Source: a virus
DNA length: 64,000 bases
Direction: 5' to 3' (one strand)
Virus record (IMG/VR): IMGVR_UViG_3300033233_000019
Location: 1 to 64,000 of that record
The stretch's first letter is position 1. Each line of letters opens with the position of its first letter. Below are positions 9,213 through 59,663 of the stretch, piece after piece. The notes below the pieces were generated by a model. It saw only the letters and a list, made by a program, of their open reading frames with translations. It was not told where the DNA came from and searched no databases. A program made the position numbers and the translations under genes.

Positions 9213-9213
9213 T

Positions 9214-9537
9214 TCATTTCTCCCTTATCCAGCATTTCTGACCTGAGTAGCAGACTTCAACGCTGTAGACTTCGATTCCCTTGGCTTGCGCCAGTTGCAC
9301 TAACCGCGCCGCCGCGTACTTGACTTCGCTCTCCTGCACGTCGTAGATGTGCTCGACGATTTCGTCGCCTTCTGGTCCGTTGCTCAAGAGTGACAGCCAG
9401 TACAGCCGCGCACGAACGATTCCTAGCCCAATTTCATTGGCCCACTTCGACGACTTCTCTGGCCGCACTTCCAGCCCGTCAGGGCCAATGTAGACTTCCA
9501 TCGAAATCGGAGTACCGTCTTTGAGTTTGTTGTGCAT
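9214..9537 (-). CDS. hypothetical protein, 107 aa
   Basis: ATG at 9537; a GAGG lies upstream at a long distance (about 13 bases). Beta strand opening (ISMEVYIGPDGLEVRP), central helices (IVRARLYWLSLLSN) and a C-terminal hydrophobic strand with two Cys. No recognised family. Confidence 0.55.
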   Translation of the reverse strand: MHNKLKDGTPISMEVYIGPDGLEVRPEKSSKWANEIGLGIVRARLYWLSLLSNGPEGDEIVEHIYDVQESEVKYAAARLVQLAQAKGIEVYSVEVCYSGQKCWIREK

Positions 9538-11422: not shown

Positions 11423-11491
11423 TGACCTGATCTTCAGTGCATGGCGGTCAATCCATGCAGACGAGCGCCGGAAGACCAGCGCCCGTTTCAC
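11423..11491 (-). promoter_or_regulatory. pseudoknot leader element, copy 1
   Basis: Minus strand order: GTGAAAC, 11-bp stem (ACGGGCGCTGG with CCGGCGCTCGT, two G-T pairs), hairpin TGCATGG-ATTGACCG-CCATGCA, then CTGAAGATCAGGTCA. Loop TGACC is complementary to the downstream GGTCA, giving an H-type pseudoknot just before the Shine-Dalgarno site of the 81-aa gene. Confidence 0.65.
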
Positions 11492-16223: not shown

Positions 16224-18176
16224 ATCGTTTACTCCTGTTTTGAATGGTTTTGGAATCGCCACAGTGACCTGATCACTCCGTTGCAATCGGTGGTGACGGT
16301 GTATGTCGATTCCAGAACCACTCAAGGTTTCTGGCGAGCATCACAGCCCGCTAGGTTGAGGTTTGCGAAGAGCAGTTCACTTAACTTTTCCGTGAGCCGT
16401 GCAGCATGTAACGCTGCGACTGCGCCCTGCTCTTATATGTTGCGAGGAAGACTGCCAATCTTCCTGCATCCTTTGGCTACGCTTGCGTCTCACGTTTCGG
16501 CTTCCCGCGTACTGCTGTACTATCTCGCGGTCTTCAGGAGCTTCGTCGTGGCGGTCAGGTTCGCCGCCCTTCCCTGAGCTTGCTTGCCTACTTTGTGAAA
16601 CCTTGCCATGTCCAGATATTCTCATGGCTGGTATCCAATTTCAATAGCTATTTCGTGTATTTTACAACCCCTTTAGAATCAGCGAGAAATAAAGATCACG
16701 AGTTTACTACTTCGATACTTGACATGGGAAAATTGGATTAATTAGTCGCAGTTAGCCGCAAGTCATTGAGCCAGCACGACTTACGCTAACGAGCTAATGT
16801 TAACTAAAGCGTAAACAAATTAGTCCGACGCTAATCTCCCAATTGTAAAGGACTTACGCGCATACGTTCGTCGTTTGTTCGCTTCTGTTAACACGGCCAT
16901 TTGAATTACCACGGCTGTGCGAATCCGGCCACATGCGACCAGCCCGTGATCGCGTCAGGATGCCCTAAGACGCGCAGGACGTGCCACGATGCCACCGCGA
17001 CACCACGGACACAGCCACGAGCACGCCAGCCACGAATCCGGCCATCCTGCGAACGGGCGCTATGTGATCCCGGCCAGCTACGCGGCCATGAACGAATCAC
17101 AAGACCCGGCCATGATCAAGATGCATGAGAGAGAGAGAGACAGGAGCCTGTTAGCTGAGTAATAAACGATATTGCAATTAGTGCCGTTAGCGCCAACAGT
17201 CACCATCGTGGCTCTTTCGCTTTGCGTTCGTAACGTGACTAACGTGGACACAGCCTTCGGCTCACTTAGCACACCTATGAAAAACCATAGGCTGATCTAT
17301 GTCCGATAACGCTGCACACCTGTTGTGGGAGATATGATAAATCATAGATTGTAAGTGGTTGAGGCCATTAGCCCGTTAGAGCGATTAGCTACGCAAGTGG
17401 AACAACTGGACTAATCGTGACTAATGTTGACTAATTGGTTAAGGGAACAAAACCGCGTATTGTCGAGCGTCGTATCTATCTTATCTATCTATAACTTACA
17501 GACCACAAATCTGCTAATTGTAAGTCCTTTAGAATCAGTTAGCCCATTAGCGCGTCAGTAATGCAGGAGCAAAATGTTCTAAGTCCTTTTGAATCAGCAA
17601 TAAGGAGTCTCTAATCGGTCGAGAGGGGTGGGGTAGGAGAGTCCCCGGCGTATGGCACCAGACGCATTGCTGGCGCAGCCTCAAAGTGGACTAATCCCAC
17701 TAACGGGTACATCTATGGTTTTCCATATGCTTGCATATACTTACCGCCTAATAGGGACTCCTTCCTCAGAATAGGGTGGTGCATCCCTGAAAGGGTGGTA
17801 GTACCCGTGGCTAACTGGTACATAGGGATATACGATATGCTAACGTGCCAACGCAAGTATATCCTGCTGTGCCGTTACAAGCCTTTGGTGTCTTTGTCAC
17901 CCATTCAGGGCTGGATTGTCAACTTGGGAGGGTCACATTGTCAACCGTTAGCCAGTTAGTCTGTGTCACGAAAACAAGTGGTACATTTATACCTATTGAT
18001 GTTGATTTTATGGTTTAATAGGTCATAGTATACCTATATGCAAGATATCGCGTTTAAGACTGAGGAACTGCAGATTGCTCTCGGTAAGCGTATACTCACC
18101 AGAACAACGCTTCGTGTTCAACTTTTGGCGCTGCCCGTGCGACTGAGATTCCTGAACAAACTAGGTAATATTTACA
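16224..18176. other. long gene-poor region with TTAG/CTAA repeats, candidate origin
   Basis: No ORF with a ribosome site and recognisable protein could be supported in about 1.9 kb; short arginine-rich frames at 16377-16625 look accidental. Many copies of TTAGCC[C/A]xTTAG and ACTAAT occur (for example near 17370, 17410, 17535, 17955). CTTTAGAATCAG or CTTTTGAATCAG follows AAGTC or AACCC at three sites (16664, 17518, 17578). A GACCTGATCAC near 16264 resembles the tail of the pseudoknot leaders but lacks the matching loop. A (GA) run lies at 17138. Confidence 0.5.
17409..17438 (+). repeat. three tandem 10-bp iterons
   Basis: GACTAATCGT, GACTAATGTT and GACTAATTGG follow each other with exact 10-bp period, so the copies lie on one DNA face. 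Typical spacing for a replication-initiator or regulator array. Single ACTAAT or TTAG motifs flank it. Confidence 0.55.
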
Positions 18177-24689: not shown

Positions 24690-25145
24690 CTTCAATCATG
24701 GAACTTGCGATAAACGGTTTAGCATTTATCCGTTGCATGTCGTTTTAAGGTGCGCCATACTACCACCGCATTGTCCATGATCCCTGAAATGTATCCGTCG
24801 AAACCTTGACACGCCCATTATAAACAGTTGAACACGTTTTTACGGCCCACGTTTGAACGTCAATGTTTGTCTTCGTTCAACTGCTTATGGTGGACGTGAC
24901 GAGAGTCGAACTCGTGTCCGCATACACCAACAATCACTTCATACCATGCTTAAACTTATAAAATTTAGGGCGGGGTGGTTATGAACCGTTCCCCGTTATC
25001 CCCAAATGGCAAGTTGCGACCTTGCCGTGCTTATTGCCCACACCAACGGAGCGCCGTCTACAGTCCTGAATCTTGTACAGGCGTAACGTCCCGGCTAGAC
25101 TGCTACCGTATGTTGGAATATGCGATGCGCTTCACTGTGAGCAAA
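24690..25145 (-). ncRNA. ssrA: tmRNA, circularly permuted (two-piece) gene order
   Basis: The tRNA-like 3' half comes first on the minus strand: T-arm ACGAG-TTCGACT-CTCGT, then CACGTCC-A-CCA ending at 24888. After a 71-nt intervening segment (24817-24887) comes the 5' half: GGGCGTG (24816-24810), TCAA, GGTTTCGACGG (24805-24795), the hallmark tmRNA D-loop. GGGCGTG pairs with CACGTCC over seven positions (one G-U), and CAGTTGAAC/GTTCAACTG closes the intervening loop. ATACAT and TTTCA after the D-loop match GTGTAT and TGAAG before the T-arm (helix 2). Candidate tag frames end at TAG 25095 (Ala resume at 25130 or 25142, ending TVAV). A GATAAA/TTTATC pseudoknot-like stem and a terminator follow. 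Outer ends approximate. Confidence 0.8.
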
Positions 25146-25810: not shown

Positions 25811-25837
25811 TGTACACTACTCCATTTGGTTTGTCAA
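25809..25837 (-). promoter_or_regulatory. sigma70-type promoter
   Basis: TTGACA (25837-25832), 17-bp spacer, TACAAT (25814-25809). Predicted +1 about 25802. Confidence 0.6.
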
Positions 25838-25861
25838 GTTTTTTCGCAATAAAACTTGACA

Positions 25862-26377
25862 TTATTTCTGCCAGCTTCGGATCAGATTACCAATTAGCAC
25901 CCATTCGTCGTAGCTGAAGTGGTCAGACTTAGACCTATTGCATCGAGCACAGCACACTACACAATTATCCATTGTGTAACCTACCTTGTTATCTCGTCTG
26001 TCGAGCTTATAGCCGTTAGCGGTGCTATAGGGCTTCCAAACTACCTTATCGTCGCAATAATGACACCTATTTATGGTGGTGAACTTAACAAATTCGGCGT
26101 AAGTCAAGGACACTGTGGTGCGTGCTTTAGCTAACTTTACTAGCACGTTGTATAAAGCCTCAAATGGACGCAATTTATGGTGCGCTCTATAGCACGAATT
26201 ACAGCCTGTGTTCTTACCTCGCAATATATTAGATGCAGTCTTCGTAAATTCAATTCCGCATTTACAGCGGCATTGCCAGACTGAATGATGTCGGTCAGCA
26301 GTATATGTCGAAACTAAATAAAGAATTTTTAAGTTACCAAATACTCTTCCTGTAAGATTTACAAATTTATTAGGCAT
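25862..26377 (-). CDS. HNH homing endonuclease, family A copy 3
   Basis: 171 aa. N-terminal part CRCKCGIEF and GCNSCYRAHH is an extra zinc-rich domain; then KLRPFEALYNVL, RCHYCDDKVVW, KLDRRDNKVGY, NCVVCCARCN and YDEW, paralogous to the 359-784 gene. Starts on a TAATG overlap with the DNA polymerase stop, with GGAG upstream. Insertion behind a polymerase gene is classic for phage homing nucleases. Confidence 0.88.
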   Translation of the reverse strand: MPNKFVNLTGRVFGNLKILYLVSTYTADRHHSVWQCRCKCGIEFTKTASNILRGKNTGCNSCYRAHHKLRPFEALYNVLVKLAKARTTVSLTYAEFVKFTTINRCHYCDDKVVWKPYSTANGYKLDRRDNKVGYTMDNCVVCCARCNRSKSDHFSYDEWVLIGNLIRSWQK

Positions 26378-28842
26378 TATTTTCTCCAACAACTATCGAT
26401 GTGAAAATCAAACGTCATTTTTACCTTGCTCATTTTTTCGGCAGCAGCTACAGCAAATGCTCTGCCAGTCATATTAGCCACAAGTTTGCTATACCGAACC
26501 GGGCATTGAACTAATAACTCGTCATGTACCATTGCCAAGATTTTTGCTTTCAACCGTGGCAATGTATGCCATAAAAAGGGCATTCCTTTAGAACTATATC
26601 CGCATCCCATAGCCAGTTTAATTATACTGGCATTCGTTCCCTGAATAGGGTGATTCTTGCCCTGCCGCTCAATACGCCCGAACATCGACTTCATCATTGA
26701 TGAGACTGTCCAAGCTTGAGGCATTTGGCGGTGGAGCATGTCATATAACGCTTCATCTGATGGCTTCTTGCCATTCGCTGCCGTGTACGCTTCGGTTTCA
26801 GTTTCGACTGTTTGCTCCCACAACGCCTCAGTCCACTTGGGCCGCATGATACCGAAAAACTTCGGGTCTTTCCGCATCCACTTTTCCCAACGCGATCCTT
26901 CCTCTTCCTTTGCTGACTCGATAATCTCTTGTATGGCGCGATCCCATGTTGGCTCAGGGAACAGTCGTCGGCGACCAAACATGTCCCACGCGGCGCGGTT
27001 GTCTCGTGCTGCTTGAGCCGATGCGTCCAAATAATTCCAAAGATCAGGGAAGCTGTCTTTGTGCTTATCCAAAATATCTTGAGCCTCTTCAACTGATTTA
27101 CCAGTCTGTGCGGCAAGGTTCGATGCCTGACCGCCGTAAGGGATCAGGAAGTTAGGAACCTTCGCATCATCACGCTTATGACCGTGATTCTGGCATTTGC
27201 ATTTCTTGTGCTGTGGTAATCCGTCAGCGCCAATCTTGTAGTACACACACTCAGGTGATGCCCACCCCGGCCATTCAGCAGGATACATCATTTCGGCGCA
27301 AACTTCGTGAACGTCGTCGCCGTGGTTAAATGCGTCGATCCAAACTTTCTCGCCAGACAACTCTGCCAGAATGCGAAGTTCTGCGCCTGACATGTCGGCA
27401 GTCACAATGCAGTAACCTTCAGGTTCGTCCGCGTCTGGTGGATCAGCCACGAAGCACGCACGAATCTCTTCCGCCTTTGGGATATTCTGACCGTTTGGTT
27501 GCGAACTTGTCGAGCGACCTGTTTCAGCATCTAGCTGATTGAACTTCGGGTGTAATCTATAATCGTAAGGATGCAGCCAGCCTTCCTGCCAGCCTTCGGC
27601 TTCCTTGGTTTTTTTGTGCTTGAATCCCGGCGAAGTTGTCCATGTGCTTGTCCACGTCTTGCCGTAGGTCTTAATCGACTTGGACAGCTTTCGGTATTTC
27701 AGGAATGCCGCGATCACCGGAACGTGCTTGTACTCCGACAGGTCGGAATCGTCTGTGCTCGTTAGCCCCTTTAGCCCCGGCATCGTTTCAAACACTTCAA
27801 GCATCTGAGCGCCTGATGAGTAATTGATCAGCGCATCACCTTCGCACTTGGCAACCAGATTGCGCTGCTTGGTGCGCCGCTTGCCAAGGTCGGATGCTTC
27901 CTTCTTCAACTTGTCACGCAGTGGTCGGCGCACTTGGTCTTTCAAGTCGATTGACTTCCACTTTTCCTGCGCTTCAGCAATCTGCACATCTGTAATCACG
28001 GCGCTCTTGGAACCAACAAGCGGAACAAGCACCGGGTCAAGTTCTTCAGTAAGCAGTTTTTTGAAATCTGCGATATTGCGATCACCAATTCCATTCCACT
28101 TGTCTGTGTCCACGCGCATACCGTGAATGTGCATGTCAATGAATGAGCCGATTGCGTTGTTCTCGATTCCGGCTATTTCAATCATGCTGGTGTCTTTGAG
28201 CAACGGATATTGAAGCTGGCGAAAAGCAAGTGGCAACACCACGTCAATCGCGGCATACTCAACTTGCTCCGATGTTATCGGGTCAGTCAGGTTGAATGAC
28301 ATTTGTAGGTCTTTGTTAATCTGCGCGTTGAAATAACGTGCGGCCATTTCCTCCATTGAGAAGTAGCCGTAATCTTTCAGCGAGTGTTCACCAGCCACGA
28401 GCAATCGCTCCACAACGTCGCACGAGAACAATTTCCACGTCCGCATTCCGAAGCACCAGTACGACTGCTCGTACTCAAACCCAAGATTGACTCCTACTTT
28501 AAGATAGTCACCAGTGCATAGGAAAGGAGTGAAAGCGTCAACCACAGCCCGTAGGCGAGGATCAAGGTTCTTACCATAGTTGCCCTGCGTGGCACCAAGT
28601 ACTGTGGAATTGCCGTCAACAAAAGCAAGCAGATCGACAACAAACTGTTCATTTCTGTCTCCAATCTGCCAGAGACGATCCCGGCGAACGTAGAAGTCCT
28701 TAGCCGGGGTCGTTTCTTTGTCCCACCCAAGAACTCGCTTGGACTTGAGCAAATGATTTGTCATTCGCAGCAATCCTGCACCGTCTGTCACGAGTGTTGG
28801 GTTCAACGGCGGATTCAACTTCAGTGGAGCTAACTCACTCAT
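26377..28842 (-). CDS. family A DNA polymerase
   Basis: 821 aa from the ATG at 28842 (ATGA overlap). 3'-5' exonuclease region LGWDKETTP near the N-terminus; polymerase motif A IVTADMSGAELRILAE, motif B region AKVPNFLIPYGGQASNLAAQ and motif C ILAMVHDELLVQCP. Motif A reads DMSGAEL where most have DYSQIEL. A CKCQNHGHK insert before motif B may bind zinc. Main replicative polymerase of this phage by context with the primase-helicase and SSB genes. Confidence 0.92.
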   Translation of the reverse strand: MSELAPLKLNPPLNPTLVTDGAGLLRMTNHLLKSKRVLGWDKETTPAKDFYVRRDRLWQIGDRNEQFVVDLLAFVDGNSTVLGATQGNYGKNLDPRLRAVVDAFTPFLCTGDYLKVGVNLGFEYEQSYWCFGMRTWKLFSCDVVERLLVAGEHSLKDYGYFSMEEMAARYFNAQINKDLQMSFNLTDPITSEQVEYAAIDVVLPLAFRQLQYPLLKDTSMIEIAGIENNAIGSFIDMHIHGMRVDTDKWNGIGDRNIADFKKLLTEELDPVLVPLVGSKSAVITDVQIAEAQEKWKSIDLKDQVRRPLRDKLKKEASDLGKRRTKQRNLVAKCEGDALINYSSGAQMLEVFETMPGLKGLTSTDDSDLSEYKHVPVIAAFLKYRKLSKSIKTYGKTWTSTWTTSPGFKHKKTKEAEGWQEGWLHPYDYRLHPKFNQLDAETGRSTSSQPNGQNIPKAEEIRACFVADPPDADEPEGYCIVTADMSGAELRILAELSGEKVWIDAFNHGDDVHEVCAEMMYPAEWPGWASPECVYYKIGADGLPQHKKCKCQNHGHKRDDAKVPNFLIPYGGQASNLAAQTGKSVEEAQDILDKHKDSFPDLWNYLDASAQAARDNRAAWDMFGRRRLFPEPTWDRAIQEIIESAKEEEGSRWEKWMRKDPKFFGIMRPKWTEALWEQTVETETEAYTAANGKKPSDEALYDMLHRQMPQAWTVSSMMKSMFGRIERQGKNHPIQGTNASIIKLAMGCGYSSKGMPFLWHTLPRLKAKILAMVHDELLVQCPVRYSKLVANMTGRAFAVAAAEKMSKVKMTFDFHIDSCWRK

Positions 28843-31019
28843 TTCGATCCCCATGAATCTTTGTACTCCCAATAGAGCCTGTGGCCTTCTTTTCCGTTTC
28901 TGTAGATTCCAATCTTGTCGGCCATGCGACACAACGTGTCCCACGAGCAACTTGTCTCTGCCATCAACTGCGCGTCGAAATCATCTACGTACCGTTTACT
29001 CTCGACTGCGAACACCGCCTTGATTGATTGCTCACGCTTGCTATTGCGCTTATCGTTGTTCACATCACGACTCTCGCGGTCCGCCGCAATGTCGTCGGCT
29101 GATTGCAAATTCTCTCCAAGATATTCGACCTTCGCTTGTTCACCAAGCTGCGGTAACGCTGGCATGACAAACCCAATCGTTTTGAAATCGATGCCGGGGA
29201 ACTGACCAAGATTGCGCTTGATCTGCGACATGGTGGTTATCTCATCGTTGCGAGTGAACATCCAACCCATACGAGCGACTTCACCAATCGCAGCGGAGCC
29301 ACCGATCTTATGCAATGCGTTCGCTACGCCTTGCTGTTTGTTGTGGTGGGCGATCAGCAGAATAGCAATCTGGTAATCCGCCGCCAGTCTTGACAGCGGC
29401 ATCATAATCTGCCGCACATCCTGTGTCTTGTCGCCTTTCTTGTTGCCAAGGTAATTCATCAGTGGATCGATCACGACCAACTTAATGTCGCTGTTTTCCA
29501 GAACTTGTTTCTCGATGTACTGAATGTCTTTGTCGAGATTGAGTGTGACAATCTCTCCCGGTCTGCCTTCGATACCTTGCACCATCAGCAATCGTTTTAG
29601 GTCACCATCTGCTGCCAAAAATCTTGGGCCGATGATCGTGTTGGGATCGTCTTCCTCAGACAGCAACAGCGTGGTCGCCGGATCGTTTTCATTTTTGGAG
29701 CCATCGATGAAGTCTGCACCATTGCTCAATCGAGCGGCGAAATCGAGAGCCATCAAAGTTTTACCGATGCCAGCATCACCGGAGAACACGGTAACGAATC
29801 CAAGCGGCACCCGATTCTTCCAGAGCCACTTCGTCGTGTCCATCTTCGCCAGATCAATCGTCACAACTTTGATGTGCTTCTCTGGCTCGACGACAGGCTC
29901 ATCGTCAACAGGTTGCGGTGTAAGCGCCGATTCCTTCAGTGTTGCGAAACTGAATCGTTTTCCGAACTTTGCCTCAGCCGCATCGCGGAACTGTCTCCAA
30001 TGATTTTCAGAGCACGAATTGTGAAAACAGAAATACCCCAATCCCGATGGACCAACGAAGACAGCAGCGTCTTTGTTGCCGTGCTCCGGGTTGAAGAAAC
30101 ATTCGTTGAGGACAAACTTGTATCGACCATCCGGGTCTTCTCCCTCGCTCTTAATTTCGATGCCGTAGAAATCCAGAAACGCACGCATGTGCTCTTTGGT
30201 GTATTCAACGTGCTTGCTAGCAACGAGGCCACTTCTCTTCGTGGTCACGGGAGTTATTGCCTTTGCAATCTCGACAGTCGAAGCAAGAGCAGTCAATTGC
30301 TCAAGTGTAACGCAATCCATTCCACCAACACCGTTGGCAACCAACTTCGATACGCGGTGAAATCTTTTCTGCGCCGCGTGCTCTTCCCCCTTGCGTGCCA
30401 TACTGCCGTAAGCTTTCACGATGCGTGCCGCATTGAAAACCGACTTGTCCACTTTCACTTTGTCAGTATCAAACTTCGCGGCCAGCGCACCCAAGACAGC
30501 TTTCAACAATGCAGTAACATCGCTAGTGTTGTCCAGATCAACGCGATACAGCAGATGGTAACCATTGCCAGAGTCTCCGAACAAGGGACGCGGCCAGCCT
30601 TCGGCCTTGAGATACTTGAAAATTTCAGATACCTTTTCCTTCGCAAGCGCCTTCTCCTCGTCTGAAGAACTGATGCCAGCCGCACGCTGTGGGTCAATGT
30701 CCAGCAGCAGCCAACGGCGGCGAAGAATTTGAGAGTCTTGGGTTGTCTCGTTCGCATTCTCGCGTGACTTGTTGCACGAGCGGGAAATCAGCGACGGTTC
30801 GCAGGGATTCAACGTATAGTAAACAGCGGTATAGCATTGGCCTACTTCCCTAATATCTTTTGCCAACTCCCCATGATCATCGTAGTAACCAGAAATTGTA
30901 CCAAGGTTGCGCCCGTTTTCAGCTTTCGCTTTCGGGATTCGGAGTTCGACTACTGCGCCTTCGGGAAACAGCGCAGTGATTGCTGCACGAATGTCTTCCA
31001 ACTTAATTTCTTCCGCCAT
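28839..31019 (-). CDS. primase-helicase (AEP-type primase fused to RecA-fold ATPase)
   Basis: 726 aa. N-terminal half has RRWLLLDIDPQRA (DxD catalytic pair) and FGDSGNGYHLLYRVD, typical of archaeo-eukaryotic-type phage primases; CFFNPEHGNKDAAV and FHNSCSENHW follow. C-terminal half: Walker A SGDAGIGKT, TTLLLSEEDDPN, Walker B IKLVVIDPLMNYL and LLIAHHNK, the RepA/AAA_25 helicase core. Start ATG 31019 with AAAGG upstream, overlapping the NUMOD4 gene by 17 nt. Unwinds and primes at the fork. Confidence 0.88.
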   Translation of the reverse strand: MAEEIKLEDIRAAITALFPEGAVVELRIPKAKAENGRNLGTISGYYDDHGELAKDIREVGQCYTAVYYTLNPCEPSLISRSCNKSRENANETTQDSQILRRRWLLLDIDPQRAAGISSSDEEKALAKEKVSEIFKYLKAEGWPRPLFGDSGNGYHLLYRVDLDNTSDVTALLKAVLGALAAKFDTDKVKVDKSVFNAARIVKAYGSMARKGEEHAAQKRFHRVSKLVANGVGGMDCVTLEQLTALASTVEIAKAITPVTTKRSGLVASKHVEYTKEHMRAFLDFYGIEIKSEGEDPDGRYKFVLNECFFNPEHGNKDAAVFVGPSGLGYFCFHNSCSENHWRQFRDAAEAKFGKRFSFATLKESALTPQPVDDEPVVEPEKHIKVVTIDLAKMDTTKWLWKNRVPLGFVTVFSGDAGIGKTLMALDFAARLSNGADFIDGSKNENDPATTLLLSEEDDPNTIIGPRFLAADGDLKRLLMVQGIEGRPGEIVTLNLDKDIQYIEKQVLENSDIKLVVIDPLMNYLGNKKGDKTQDVRQIMMPLSRLAADYQIAILLIAHHNKQQGVANALHKIGGSAAIGEVARMGWMFTRNDEITTMSQIKRNLGQFPGIDFKTIGFVMPALPQLGEQAKVEYLGENLQSADDIAADRESRDVNNDKRNSKREQSIKAVFAVESKRYVDDFDAQLMAETSCSWDTLCRMADKIGIYRNGKEGHRLYWEYKDSWGSK

Positions 31020-31419
31020 TCTTGCCTTTCACATAGGGATTATTTTCACCTATGCGGTTTTTGCAATAGGCCAAATAATTTGGGTAGTTCATGTTTTCTT
31101 TTTGTGTTCCCCATACCAAATTGGTTGGTATGTTGTTTTGTGAATTTTCGTCGTTGTGTAAACAATAAGGTTTACCTATTGGCGCTGGTCCGTTGAATGC
31201 TTCACAAACCAGCCGTGCAACTTTGTAAGTTTGATGATTGCGCTTGTGTCTATAAATGAAACGCTTTCCGTCCCATTGTCCAAAAGAAACAGTTCCGCCA
31301 TATGAGCGATATCCACCATTCGGCATTGCAATCGTATAAGGTACAACTCTAATCCGTCCCAAAGATGAGGCTTCTAAATTTGGGACGGATAGAATTGATT
31401 TCCATGTTTCGTTATTCAT
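31003..31419 (-). CDS. NUMOD4/HNH homing endonuclease
   Basis: 138 aa, starting on a TGATG overlap with the SSB-like gene. WKSILSVPNLEASSLGRIR is NUMOD4; YKVARLVCEAFNGPAPIGKP, LHNDENSQNN and NLVWGTQKENM are the HNH core of this class. Sits between SSB-like and primase genes, as expected for a homing gene. Confidence 0.9.
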   Translation of the reverse strand: MNNETWKSILSVPNLEASSLGRIRVVPYTIAMPNGGYRSYGGTVSFGQWDGKRFIYRHKRNHQTYKVARLVCEAFNGPAPIGKPYCLHNDENSQNNIPTNLVWGTQKENMNYPNYLAYCKNRIGENNPYVKGKNGGRN

Positions 31420-32051
31420 CAAAAAGGAATATCATCGTCCGAAATCTCGACGCTTCCTTCCTGTGGCCCGACTTCAACGCCAGCCTTTGCAGCCGAACGT
31501 GTGGTGCTGGTTGGAGCCGGAGTGGTCTTCGGAGCGGAAGTTCCTACTGAAGCATTCTTCGGAGCAGTCTTCGGAGCAGTCTTCGGAGCAGCCTTCTGCG
31601 CGGGTTTCTGATCCTTCTCCTTGTTGCAATCGCGGACGAAATCCGCAGGAATGCCGACAGCCTGATTCTTGATCGGAGCCAGAATCGTTGCGATGTTGGC
31701 AAAAATCTTGCCTTCCGCGCCTTCGTTCTGAATCACATCCAGTTGGCATTGCTTGCCGATGAGCGTCTCAAGGTCGAGCGACTCGCCGGGGTCTTTTCCA
31801 AGCAAACGCCGAACTGCTTTGAACATGATGCTTTTTTCGTGAAGCGACAAACTCATCTGCTGCATCAAACGAAATGGCCTTCCATCAGAATCGGTATCCG
31901 ACAGGATGAAGATGAAGCGGACACGATGCTTCGTGCCGTAGTTGGTGGGCTGATCGCCCAAGTCAATAACGTCCGCAAGGACAGCCTGATACAGACCGTC
32001 AGCGGGAATCTCGAAATCCTTCTGCTCTTTCTTGTTAACCACAATCGCCAT
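31419..32051 (-). CDS. single-stranded DNA-binding-like protein
   Basis: 210 aa. N-terminal beta-rich domain (GLYQAVLADVIDLGD, HRVRFIFILSDTDSD, FRLMQQMSLSLH) fits an OB fold of the DUF669/SSB-like kind; a Pro/Ala/Thr/Lys linker follows and the protein ends VEISDDDIPF, the acidic SSB tip that recruits replication partners. First gene of the leftward replication operon, behind its own promoter. Confidence 0.8.
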   Translation of the reverse strand: MAIVVNKKEQKDFEIPADGLYQAVLADVIDLGDQPTNYGTKHRVRFIFILSDTDSDGRPFRLMQQMSLSLHEKSIMFKAVRRLLGKDPGESLDLETLIGKQCQLDVIQNEGAEGKIFANIATILAPIKNQAVGIPADFVRDCNKEKDQKPAQKAAPKTAPKTAPKNASVGTSAPKTTPAPTSTTRSAAKAGVEVGPQEGSVEISDDDIPF

Positions 32052-32094
32052 ACTGTTTACGACCTTTCTCGTGCTCTGTTAGCAACGTGGAACC

Positions 32095-32123
32095 ATTCTA
32101 GCACAGGTGCCGCTCCGTGTCAA
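32095..32123 (-). promoter_or_regulatory. sigma70-type promoter of the replication operon
   Basis: TTGACA (32123-32118), 17-bp spacer, TAGAAT (32100-32095). Predicted +1 about 32088, a 37-nt leader before the SSB-like ATG at 32051. Confidence 0.7.
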
Positions 32124-32127
32124 GGAT

Positions 32128-32301
32128 AAAAGTGCAGTTGCGGTGAGGAACCCCGGAAGCAAATCGTCCGAAGAGCTTGGTGGAATACCCTCTGCCGGGT
32201 AGCATATGACTCCGGTCAGTTCTCTCCCATATTCAGTCCTGCTCCTCCACCGACCAACGATTGAAGTCTCGCCGTGCGTGGATTCTCCTCCGTAACTGCA
32301 C
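32128..32301 (-). ncRNA. candidate 170-nt structured small RNA
   Basis: Promoter 32308-32336 predicts +1 at 32301, exactly the first base of a closing stem GTGCAGTT-CGG (32301-32290) that pairs with CCG-AACTGCAC (32143-32132), followed by TTTT. Inside: AGGA-AATCC with GGGTTCCT, CAATCGT with ACGATTTG, GGTGGA with TCCACC and an apical TACCC-GGCAGA-GGGTA hairpin. No start codon with a ribosome site opens a convincing ORF in it. A rod closed at its ends resembles 6S-like RNAs, but no family is recognised. Confidence 0.65.
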
Positions 32302-32307
32302 TCACAC

Positions 32308-32336
32308 ATCCTACTCCCGATCCTGCATTCTGTCAA
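32308..32336 (-). promoter_or_regulatory. sigma70-type promoter of the structured RNA
   Basis: TTGACA (32336-32331), 17-bp spacer, TAGGAT (32313-32308). Same boxes as the promoter at 1568-1596. Confidence 0.7.
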
Positions 32337-32601
32337 GAAGAAATGAGATTTGTTGAAAACAAAGCACATCTTTAGAAACCCACACCATATACTAACTATG
32401 ACTAACGAAGTACCGCCCGGATCACCCGCTAACCCTGAGTACACGCTTAGGTATCCGTTAGCCGCACGGATCGGGTGTAGTGGACGGTATACTTAGAGGC
32501 TGTTAGCAACCCATTAGCCCGATTAGTCGCGTAAATTGTTGATTACAAATATATATGTCAACTGTCTGTTAACTGTTAATTCCGCGCAAAATTCAAAGTT
32601 A

Positions 32602-32663
32602 TTGAAAACAAAGGAGTTATGCGACAAACGCTTATTTTGGCGTTAAAAGTCCTTTGTTTTCAA
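32602..32663. repeat. 14-bp perfect inverted repeat in divergent control region
   Basis: TTGAAAACAAAGGA (32602-32615) and TCCTTTGTTTTCAA (32650-32663), 34 nt apart, with an ACGC/GCGT pair inside. A further TTGAAAACAAAG lies near 32353. TTAGCC-type repeats also occur at 32456-32530. Possible operator or part of an origin. Confidence 0.55.
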
Positions 32664-32723
32664 AGCTTTACCCGGAAAGTATTCGGCGGCTATCAAGTTG
32701 TTGAAACAAAAGAAATAAAAGTG

Positions 32724-32752
32724 TTGACATTTGATGCAATTTAGTTTACAAT
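32724..32752 (+). promoter_or_regulatory. sigma70-type promoter, leaderless transcript
   Basis: TTGACA (32724-32729), 17-bp spacer, TACAAT (32747-32752). Predicted +1 at 32759, the A of the next ATG. Confidence 0.75.
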
Positions 32753-32758
32753 GTAAAG

Positions 32759-33322
32759 ATGAGAGAACTTCGACCCGGAATCGATTATCTAACTGAAGGC
32801 AACGCTGGAATAAGATACAATCGGCGGCGTGCTCAAGAAGCAAAAGAATTGAGTAAACCTAAGAAAATAAAAACTTTGGCAGCAGTCTTGGAAGACTTCC
32901 ACAATAGAGCCAAAGACCAGACCAAACGACTAGGCTTGCTTCGATATATGACAACTATTATACTAAAAGAGGTTAGTTTAGAAGAACTTACAAGGAAAAG
33001 AAAAAAATTCGACGAGTTCAAAAACGATATTTTCCCTTTGACTGAGGATTGGTGCTGGTTGTGTAATAAGCAGTTAGCCACGATTAGGCACCACGTCATA
33101 CTGCTGAGAAACGGCGGTCCTGAACTGGCGAAGCCTAATGTTGTTTTGCTGTGTCAAAATTGCCATAATGTCATTCATCCGTGGTTGCACGAGTCGAACG
33201 TATCACAATCGGAACTTACAAGGATTATTGATGTTTTCCAAAAAGCAAAAGAAGGAAAACTGTCTAGGAGTCAGGCAGAAATTGAGATGTCTATAATTTT
33301 CGACGGTCTTTTTGCGATCTAA
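32759..33322 (+). CDS. HNH protein, predicted leaderless, 187 aa
   Basis: Basic N-terminus (YNRRRAQEAKELSKPKKIK), long helix, then WCWLCNKQLATIRHHVILL and NVVLLCQNCHNVIHPWL: CxxC, HH and CxxCH, a standard HNH fold. No Shine-Dalgarno site; the promoter sits so that transcription should begin on the start codon. First rightward gene; could be a nuclease expressed early or a regulator using the HNH fold. Confidence 0.75.
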   Translation: MRELRPGIDYLTEGNAGIRYNRRRAQEAKELSKPKKIKTLAAVLEDFHNRAKDQTKRLGLLRYMTTIILKEVSLEELTRKRKKFDEFKNDIFPLTEDWCWLCNKQLATIRHHVILLRNGGPELAKPNVVLLCQNCHNVIHPWLHESNVSQSELTRIIDVFQKAKEGKLSRSQAEIEMSIIFDGLFAI

Positions 33323-58800: not shown

Positions 58801-59663
58801 GAACTGGAACGTCAAACAATCCTATCCAGAGTGCTCAACCGTTTATCTCTGGTATTGGTCTGCTGAGTTACAACGCTTTGGCGCTCAAGGGAACAACGAT
58901 TGGCATGTTCACTACGGACAAGCAATTCTTGATCCTTGACCCGACGAGCGGCGTTTCAATCGCTGGATTCCCAATCGGTGATCGTCTTCGCAAGAACAAC
59001 GGTCAGCCGGGAACAGCATGGAACCCTAAGAATGTGTATGTGACGTGGCACGCTAACGGCGAAGACCACGCATGGTATCTTTCGGATGGAGCGAACGGTT
59101 GGTACAAACTAATCGACACTCCTGCTCCTGAAGACCCCGGACACTACACATGGTCGCCATTCGCTAACATCGTTGGCGGTTGCAAGGCTGTCTTGAGTAT
59201 CGAAGTTAGTCCCGGTGTTCACGAATTGTTGCTTGGCCCAACAGGGTCAGGAGAGATTCTGCACAGAGACTTGACTACATTCACGGACGGTGCAAGCAGC
59301 ACGTATGGCGCTTGGGCGGTTATTGGTTCGGCTGTGTTAGCACAACCGGGTCAAGTTGCCGAAGTCATGTTTATCACAACTGAGTCAGTTCGGACTGGTA
59401 CTTCGCTTACGTTGGGAATTTTGGTTGACGAAGCGTTACCGTACTACACTGGCCCATTTGAAATATTGAAAGTTTGGGAAGACGATCCTACGGGTATTCC
59501 ACCAAGCCGTTCAATATTTGGTCAGAGATTCTACATGTCAGAATCGAAAGACAAGCCAGCAATTTGCCGCCACATGCAGTTCCAGATTAATTGGGTGAAG
59601 GAAGAAGTAGCAAGCGAACTTCTGACGCTCACAGTATTCGGTGCGTACAACCAAGAAAGTTAA
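55848..59663 (+). CDS. large tail protein, 1271 aa
   Basis: Longest gene of the window. RFAPLYTGRWSSGLWTNRSP and GLNVEITNRLTLARRPGNPV at the N-terminus resemble stabilisation or tubular protein B of short-tailed phages. At least three copies of a module with DxNGN...VT...G.S...PxW...T.DG.V.W are inserted (around residues 180, 365 and 730). C-terminus FGQRFYMSESKDKPAICRHM. No long coiled coil, so not a tape measure. Confidence 0.72.
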   Translation: MPNQIGLSGGQPQKQTRFAPLYTGRWSSGLWTNRSPLRDGNTSRIVEKFYGAAGDALIDGLNVEITNRLTLARRPGNPVFDSNTYTGVDNIQAFSMFSPTTEQIDVMIDEANQLSSLFGGVKSLVWNKSVGAGQTYMQPVGNSLYFANGIDNKKWLQSLVTWAASTQWNGPTSPYMTTFLIDSNGNIQQLTACIIGITSTTVASGVLTVTATETLQPGGLLSDLVTPGLQVKFPAALAATTLQGLIVTVDTVSGLTFTAKVTLANYASTPETAKTMNVFGGFPVSGVGVPTWSTTPLTPGMATPSDALTLDGTVQWTNRGTPVENWGIKPPTTTMPKPGLNSSRVAWNTNTFYSNPGVIIDANGNIQLVTIDGISGASVPTWGTNVNDLTVDGGVTWKLIQKAPLGWAAGTAYTPGVFVTGATAGTGTCLFRLRAFSQPLLKNGNIDVWTWNHDHSRGVGSFALLAPVVAGVSNAGTHTTTNTYVGHATVNCISKTTPVSSSPGNGDDGFWDQQSNAGEWVSNSRIYAPHADTSSVISGTLTVGVPGQYTFALNHHDGCFIGFGGGATKVSGVLIDDAAVSPARTTTAMFGYPIFGGTDTGLSGNAIWNDTVTVNFPVAGDYPFEIDYAYWYHSSSHTEQPVMKGAPNSEVYMEMVCNGKTIIPTTPVSGATQPIWPDWTTAFAAYDSTANDTKYPTVTDASGTMVWENLGPVTDYVWVATTTFTLPNQIIIDPNGNQQAPYRTGVTGSDASTEPSVWATGIGQLTNDNPNLIWICHGGASSSALGGTLSTFSDQGWEYCIALVNTLDNTVSNCGKLSVGTGKIIGAKSLNFAAGDGLPPASQIDPQVDYVAIFRTTDGLGVPFLIPGLENNTFYTISLAEYLANGYSDTTPDTSLDNLIQGPISGENTPPAGGAQNLTYHLNRIFFSVGNVVYWTSGPDDPIGNGLNGVSPLNFDQLPSLVKRIVPTGLGALVFTVSDIFIINGTGTSNNPIQSAQPFISGIGLLSYNALALKGTTIGMFTTDKQFLILDPTSGVSIAGFPIGDRLRKNNGQPGTAWNPKNVYVTWHANGEDHAWYLSDGANGWYKLIDTPAPEDPGHYTWSPFANIVGGCKAVLSIEVSPGVHELLLGPTGSGEILHRDLTTFTDGASSTYGAWAVIGSAVLAQPGQVAEVMFITTESVRTGTSLTLGILVDEALPYYTGPFEILKVWEDDPTGIPPSRSIFGQRFYMSESKDKPAICRHMQFQINWVKEEVASELLTLTVFGAYNQES

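Follow-up and report, generated by a model that had tools for sequence, protein, structure and literature searches.

A predicted structured non-coding transcript ahead of the early replication genes of a phage that probably infects an acidobacterium

Structured leaders of the ompA type, in which a 5′ stem-loop stands at the start of the message, protect or attenuate the mRNA that carries them. More generally, a helix joining the 5′ and 3′ ends is a common shape among stable non-coding RNAs. In 6S RNA (RF00013) the closed molecule is a rod whose single large central bubble imitates an open promoter. Here we compare with these systems a stretch of about 170 nt in the control region of a phage genome, which a first-pass annotation had described as a promoter-to-terminator RNA gene recalling 6S.

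The window, i.e., the whole stretch of 64,000 nucleotides analyzed (positions 1 to 64,000 of IMG/VR record IMGVR_UViG_3300033233_000019), belongs to a virus record of 98,912 bases. The closest match to its DNA polymerase is on another IMG/VR contig (best segment 52% identical); the nearest named phages are two cultured ones of Tunturiibacter, Tunturi_3 (39%) and Tunturi_4 (34%), and from this kinship the host is probably an acidobacterium. The control region, ~700 bases long, is flanked by a leftward SSB-like gene (31419-32051) and a rightward HNH gene (32759-33322). It contains three strong promoters, leftward P1 (−35 at 32336), leftward P2 (32123), and a rightward promoter (32724), which make up 3 of the 14 promoter-like sites scoring at least 10 of 12 window-wide. 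Both P1 and P2 are upstream of, and collinear with, the SSB-like gene and then 28839-31019 and 26377-28863 (helicase/primase and polymerase genes). The C-terminus of the SSB-like product, DDDIPF, is presumably an SSB-type tip. The gene was assigned to phrog_862 (function unknown), and one of its tblastn matches, PQ867850.1, is annotated as a putative ssDNA binding protein. Cumulative GC skew reaches its minimum near 32000, as expected of divergent transcription or an origin. The features of the region are as follows.

31419-32051, minus strand: SSB-like gene, downstream of P2, C-terminus DDDIPF; first leftward gene, followed by helicase/primase and DNA polymerase
32079-32444, minus strand: open frame of 121 codons, judged non-coding (ORF list, codon score, homology searches)
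32095-32123, minus strand: promoter P2, TTGACA 32123-32118, 17 bases, TAGAAT 32100-32095, extended −10 (promoter scan)
32128-32131, minus strand: TTTT following the closing helix; the run is too short to register in the terminator scan
32132-32301, minus strand: predicted non-coding transcript of ~170 nt, from the P1 +1 to the far arm of the closing helix (fold prediction, codon score)
32132-32139, minus strand: 3′ arm of the closing helix, AACTGCAC, with CCG 32143-32141 (repeat scan, fold prediction)
32163-32254, minus strand: long internal arm, helices with mean pair probabilities of 0.42-0.83
32255-32274, minus strand: internal hairpin CGGCGA/UCGUUG, mean pair probability 0.90
32294-32301, minus strand: 5′ arm of the closing helix, GTGCAGTT, with CGG 32292-32290 after one mismatch (repeat scan, fold prediction)
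32308-32336, minus strand: promoter P1, −35 TTGACA 32336-32331, 17-base spacer, −10 TAGGAT 32313-32308 (promoter scan)
32602-32663, no strand assigned: inverted repeat with TTGAAAACAAAGG arms, the strongest in the window; lies between P1 and the rightward promoter, with a third half-site at 32353
32724-32752, plus strand: divergent rightward promoter TTGACA-N17-TACAAT, preceding the HNH gene 32759-33322 (promoter scan)

The letters of P1, TTGACA-N17-TAGGAT, are as the first-pass annotation gave them, six bases separating the −10 from a G at 32301, the predicted +1. Promoters with a perfect TTGACA and a 17-base spacer that score at least 10 of 12 occur nine times in the window versus a mean of 0.73 in 150 dinucleotide shuffles. 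The looser count (at least 10 of 12; 14 sites versus 9.3 expected) is unimpressive alone. The −10 of P1, TAGGATG, recurs in another member of the class (1596, minus strand). Because this class is so strongly enriched, P1 is very probably a real sigma70-type phage promoter, and the putative RNA thus has the promoter of its own that a small-RNA gene requires.

The far end is less clear-cut. No intrinsic terminator was called by the scan anywhere in 31400-33000, and just four T follow the long-range helix, so that the promoter half of the proposed promoter-to-terminator gene stands and the terminator half does not. A promoter leading into a non-coding, closable transcript is likewise retained; a clean gene is not, as four bases separate the TTTT from the −35 of P2.

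It had also been stated that no ORF fits. Taken literally this is incorrect, since the 121-codon frame (32444-32079, minus strand) crosses the region, but its substance, that the content is non-coding, agrees with the codon score of −0.167, a value found among off-frame readings but not among 21 window genes (−0.001 to 0.195). Neither tblastn against phages nor Pfam gave a match to the frame, and a coding gene across 32079-32444 was therefore rejected on codon use and lack of homologues in these sets. A stop-free run of this length arose in just 57 of 2,000 mononucleotide shuffles of 32052-32445, which counts slightly against the non-coding view.

The closing helix has eight pairs, GTGCAGTT (32301-32294) with AACTGCAC (32139-32132), plus extra pairing of CGG (32292-32290) with CCG (32143-32141). 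It was confirmed from the letters that the predicted +1 at 32301 is the first base of the stem and that the partner arm ends directly before the TTTT. The pair probability of the helix is 0.97 to 0.98, both alone and within longer read-through RNAs (170 to 310 nt), and forbidding it costs about 12.6 kcal/mol. Until the 3′ arm emerges, part of the 5′ arm is paired elsewhere in predicted folding intermediates, which would permit a timed switch. The rod-like shape first attributed to the RNA was not recovered: in the prediction the fold branches into a hairpin (32274-32255) and a long arm. The window has one case of a promoter with a helix of eight near +1 and TTTT past the far arm, and 150 shuffled windows gave two, a figure that flatters the finding because the criteria were fixed only after the case had been seen. 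By other measures the fold is ordinary. A comparable end-to-end helix is present in 18 of 1,278 arbitrary 170-nt windows; the inverted repeat of the closing arms scores 10, a score reached or exceeded by 30 repeats of the window; and the overall fold energy (z −1.82) was equaled by 9 of 200 shuffles, with the RNA strand at z −1.74 and its complement at −1.91. Equal stability was found in 16 of 107 GC-matched stretches of the window. The predicted RNA holds eight GGA motifs, counted with a CsrA-type sponge in mind.

Searches for relatives of the window RNA in sequence databases brought none to light. In phages, blastn gave only short, chance-level matches, and plasmids gave none. In viral contigs the exact 37-mer core was absent, a single-arm pattern matched 19 stretches with one match each, and the two-arm pattern was absent. 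The two-arm pattern matched once in genome contigs, in a proteobacterial MAG (L054:2863-3053), where it belongs to a longer inverted repeat with an ssb-like gene on one side and a uvrA-like gene on the other (both named by eye). There the 5′ arm agrees for a few bases past the pattern and the interior lacks similarity to the window RNA; as about half a match is expected by chance in our estimate and the interior is dissimilar, we count this locus as chance. The L054 arms contain GTGAGTGCAGTTNCGGA, a word also present at the P1 start. A single-sequence covariance model found nothing at an E value of ≤10 in 23 of the 31 loci L002 to L032 (eight duplicates or near-duplicates omitted). In 22 further sources it matched just the RNA itself, the opposite strand of the RNA, and, weakly, a single other stretch (E 7.6). 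The searched sets may omit records very near the window, which bears on this absence of relatives. No second copy was found in the rest of the record, and a miniature transposable element with terminal inverted repeats was rejected, the unit being single copy in the record and no target-site duplication being seen by eye at the arm ends.

Antisense matches to the phage’s own transcripts exceeding 11 bases were limited to one 16-mer, an exact identity between 32175-32190 and 59492-59507 on the sense strand of a late tail gene. This is the sole long-distance 16-mer repeat of the window besides a dispersed repeat family, and with about one such repeat expected per window by our estimate it is near chance. 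An antisense target was rejected here, as the 16-mer has the same sense as the late message, i.e., the wrong strand.

Several other repeats were noted in the window. The word TTGAAAACAAAG occurs three times (32353, 32602-32613, and 32652-32663), always in the control region, two of the copies forming the strongest inverted repeat, and exact copies are also found in loci L003, L011, and L020; it is probably a regulator or origin site. A 1,775-base gap between predicted genes (16263-18037) is rich in GCTAAC/ACTAAT words. Within the window, AAAGGACT is confined to this gap and the 32-kb control region, and CCTTTNGAATCA, from the gap, is common to L004 and L007. The dispersed repeat of ~35 bases (pieces TGACCTGATCTTCAGT and TGCAGTGGTCAGTCTGCA) lies among leftward genes at 11423, 13666, 14942, and 15535.

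The promoter match, the helix, the non-coding content, and the position before P2 are what the analysis shows. With a confidence somewhat short of even, we favor a role as leader or attenuator, played by a structured RNA at the head of the early replication operon (SSB-like, helicase/primase, and DNA polymerase genes). P1 would make a leftward non-coding transcript whose first base would be locked in a long-range helix closing at ~170 nt, just ahead of P2. A stop or pause of the polymerase at the closing helix and UUUU, or processing there, would leave a short closed RNA; read-through would produce operon mRNA with a protected 5′ end, and P2 would be an independent supply of operon mRNA without the leader. 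Transcription itself, the stopping or processing, the 5′ protection, and any regulatory effect are what we infer. The leader reading draws on a +1 that is also the first paired base, a helix that persists at 0.97 to 0.98 in RNAs of 170 to 310 nt and is costly to forbid (about 12.6 kcal/mol), a promoter class enriched in the window (9 versus 0.73), non-coding codon use, and a unit that ends just before the P2 −35, both promoters being aimed at the SSB-like gene. It has to contend with the lack of a terminator in the scan of 31400-33000, the ordinary fold energy, the searches that found no relative, the frequency of similar inverted repeats in the window, and the predicted pairing of part of the 5′ arm elsewhere before the 3′ arm emerges. 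The same closed helix from +1 and non-coding codon use would suit a discrete small RNA of ~170 nt, unrelated to 6S, that acts in trans on messages or protein independently of the operon, and the phage group does have other RNA genes. We regard such an RNA as unlikely, however, with no terminator in the scan, no Rfam family, and, as its sole antisense match longer than 11 bases, a 16-mer on the wrong strand for the late message.

The arms could instead be a DNA element, a pair of inverted protein-binding sites (AGTGCAGTTRCGG) of operator or origin type on either side of the P1-P2 interval, with the RNA fold incidental. They are indeed near-identical 13-mers adjoining P1 and P2, in a control region crowded with further inverted and direct repeats and close to the cumulative GC skew minimum near 32000. 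The sites nevertheless occur only as one pair, the remaining two of the four window matches having two mismatches each, and the 5′ arm sets in at the very base predicted as +1, a register for which a binding site has no need; the explanation is a serious rival but, again, an improbable one. Chance, i.e., an ordinary non-coding spacer between tandem early promoters with a common inverted repeat that happens to start at +1, is favored by the ordinary fold energy, the 30 window inverted repeats scoring at least 10, the 18 of 1,278 arbitrary stretches with a similar end-to-end helix, and the post hoc criteria. Against it, promoter, +1 helix, and TTTT came together in the 150 shuffled windows only twice, and we hold chance to be rather improbable. 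Far less probable than any of these is the regulator suggested at first pass, a 6S-type RNA of the phage, which would occupy RNA polymerase in the manner of an open promoter and turn transcription from leftward to rightward. Length, closed ends, and location in a divergent control region invited the comparison, and nothing beyond these supports a 6S-like mode of working. RF00013 had no match at an E value of ≤10 over the whole 98,912-base record, although the same search matched 8 of 14 control genomes, 4 of them over the cut-off. Rfam at an E value of ≤10 gave seven weak matches in 32000-32760, none to 6S and none inside the predicted RNA. Window-wide, the Rfam families found were a tRNA and a permuted tmRNA only. 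With the covariance model unmatched and a branched predicted fold, membership in the 6S family was rejected. On balance, the promoter is probably real, and the structured transcript it would make, ordinary in kind, is plausible but unproven.

A different RNA, one that shows covariation, is present near the polymerase in five non-redundant relatives of the phage. Among 27 viral loci gathered by a polymerase-based search, a stretch of ~420 nt near RNase H and polymerase genes is shared by L004 (Tunturi_3), L007 to L010, L011, L013, and L016, and is non-coding by the ORF map. L011 was joined to this group by eye and profile; L013 and L016 are alike by sequence and are linked to the other stretches only through the following domain.

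L004:4233-4299, L007:7170-7239, L011:6707-6764, L013:7383-7432, and L016:7393-7441, all minus strand: covarying RNA domain (alignment, covariation)

In the four non-redundant members, 7 of 10 pairs were changed on both sides with 100% of cells paired, and none of 500 shuffles scored as high on four of five measures, counts that lean towards the structure because it was drawn from the same sequences; the fifth measure, further pair types, was equaled or exceeded in 391 of 500 shuffles. With L004 added the alignment was poorer (94% of cells, seven pairs). A model built from the four members recovered held-out L004 at the expected place as its next-best match (E 0.071 in 426,008 bases). Rfam at an E value of ≤1 gave no match to the ~420-nt stretch in the four loci searched (L004, L007, L011, and L016), and possibly the covarying RNA represents a new phage RNA family. 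Folded leftward as a whole, the stretch has an unremarkable energy in L004 (z −0.34) and L007 (z −1.26). Values are lower in L013 (−3.51 leftward, −4.78 rightward) and L016 (−1.85); given this mixed picture, the strand was called from the domain and the promoters. Two tandem promoters bracket the stretch in L004 and L007 (in L007 the second falls below the scan cut-off and was read by eye), whereas those of L012 and L029 enclose apparently coding genes, so the promoter bracket itself is unspecific. The domain model (R2) had no match at an E value of ≤5 in the window, L033, or L034, and homology of the window RNA with the relatives’ control-region RNA was rejected, the model finding nothing in the window’s record.

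A 109-kb viral contig has another structured RNA in a leftward stretch close to its polymerase: a class A RNase P RNA (RF00010; L017:6556-6831, minus strand; 126.8 bits versus a gathering score of 100), on a locus with 26 tRNA genes called. Together with the relatives’ RNA, this indicates that structured RNAs near the polymerase are not rare in the group. The window RNA belongs neither to the relatives’ domain family nor to RNase P RNA. Phage-borne permuted tmRNAs were also noted in the window (24696-24948, minus strand), L003 (14408-14637), L004 (cultured Tunturi_3; 9213-9437), and L007 (11187-11442), and Tunturi_4 has two type-P5 twister ribozymes (L005:24894-24951 and 25817-25878). The paper on the Tunturi phages reports tRNAs (PMC11924767); in its main text the terms tmRNA, non-coding, RNase P, and promoter have no occurrence.

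If real, the window RNA would add an RNA layer to the early gene control of phages probably infecting Acidobacteriota, a large and little-studied soil group. The covarying RNA of cultured Tunturi_3 and its relatives, which has no Rfam match, is the better lead and can be tested in the laboratory. A broader conjecture, which we consider distinctly doubtful, is that the polymerase-adjacent control region is where each acidobacteriophage lineage keeps a structured RNA gene of its own (the 170-nt RNA, the 420-nt RNA of five relatives, the RNase P RNA), with a shared role in starting replication or switching early transcription, possibly via the host RNA polymerase.

Set beside the relatives’ RNA, the window RNA is likewise predicted to be non-coding and structured and lies in a control region near the polymerase, with a tandem-promoter bracket as in L004 and L007; the relatives’ RNA, however, is ~420 nt long, has another sequence and fold, and is read away from the polymerase gene. 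With 6S RNA it shares a length near 170 to 190 nt and a helix joining both ends, but its predicted fold is branched, in contrast to the 6S rod with its single large bubble. Like the leaders of the ompA type, it would begin in a helix at the first transcribed base, ahead of genes in the same direction; it differs from them in that the helix is long-range, enclosing ~150 nt, and in that a second promoter stands between helix and gene.
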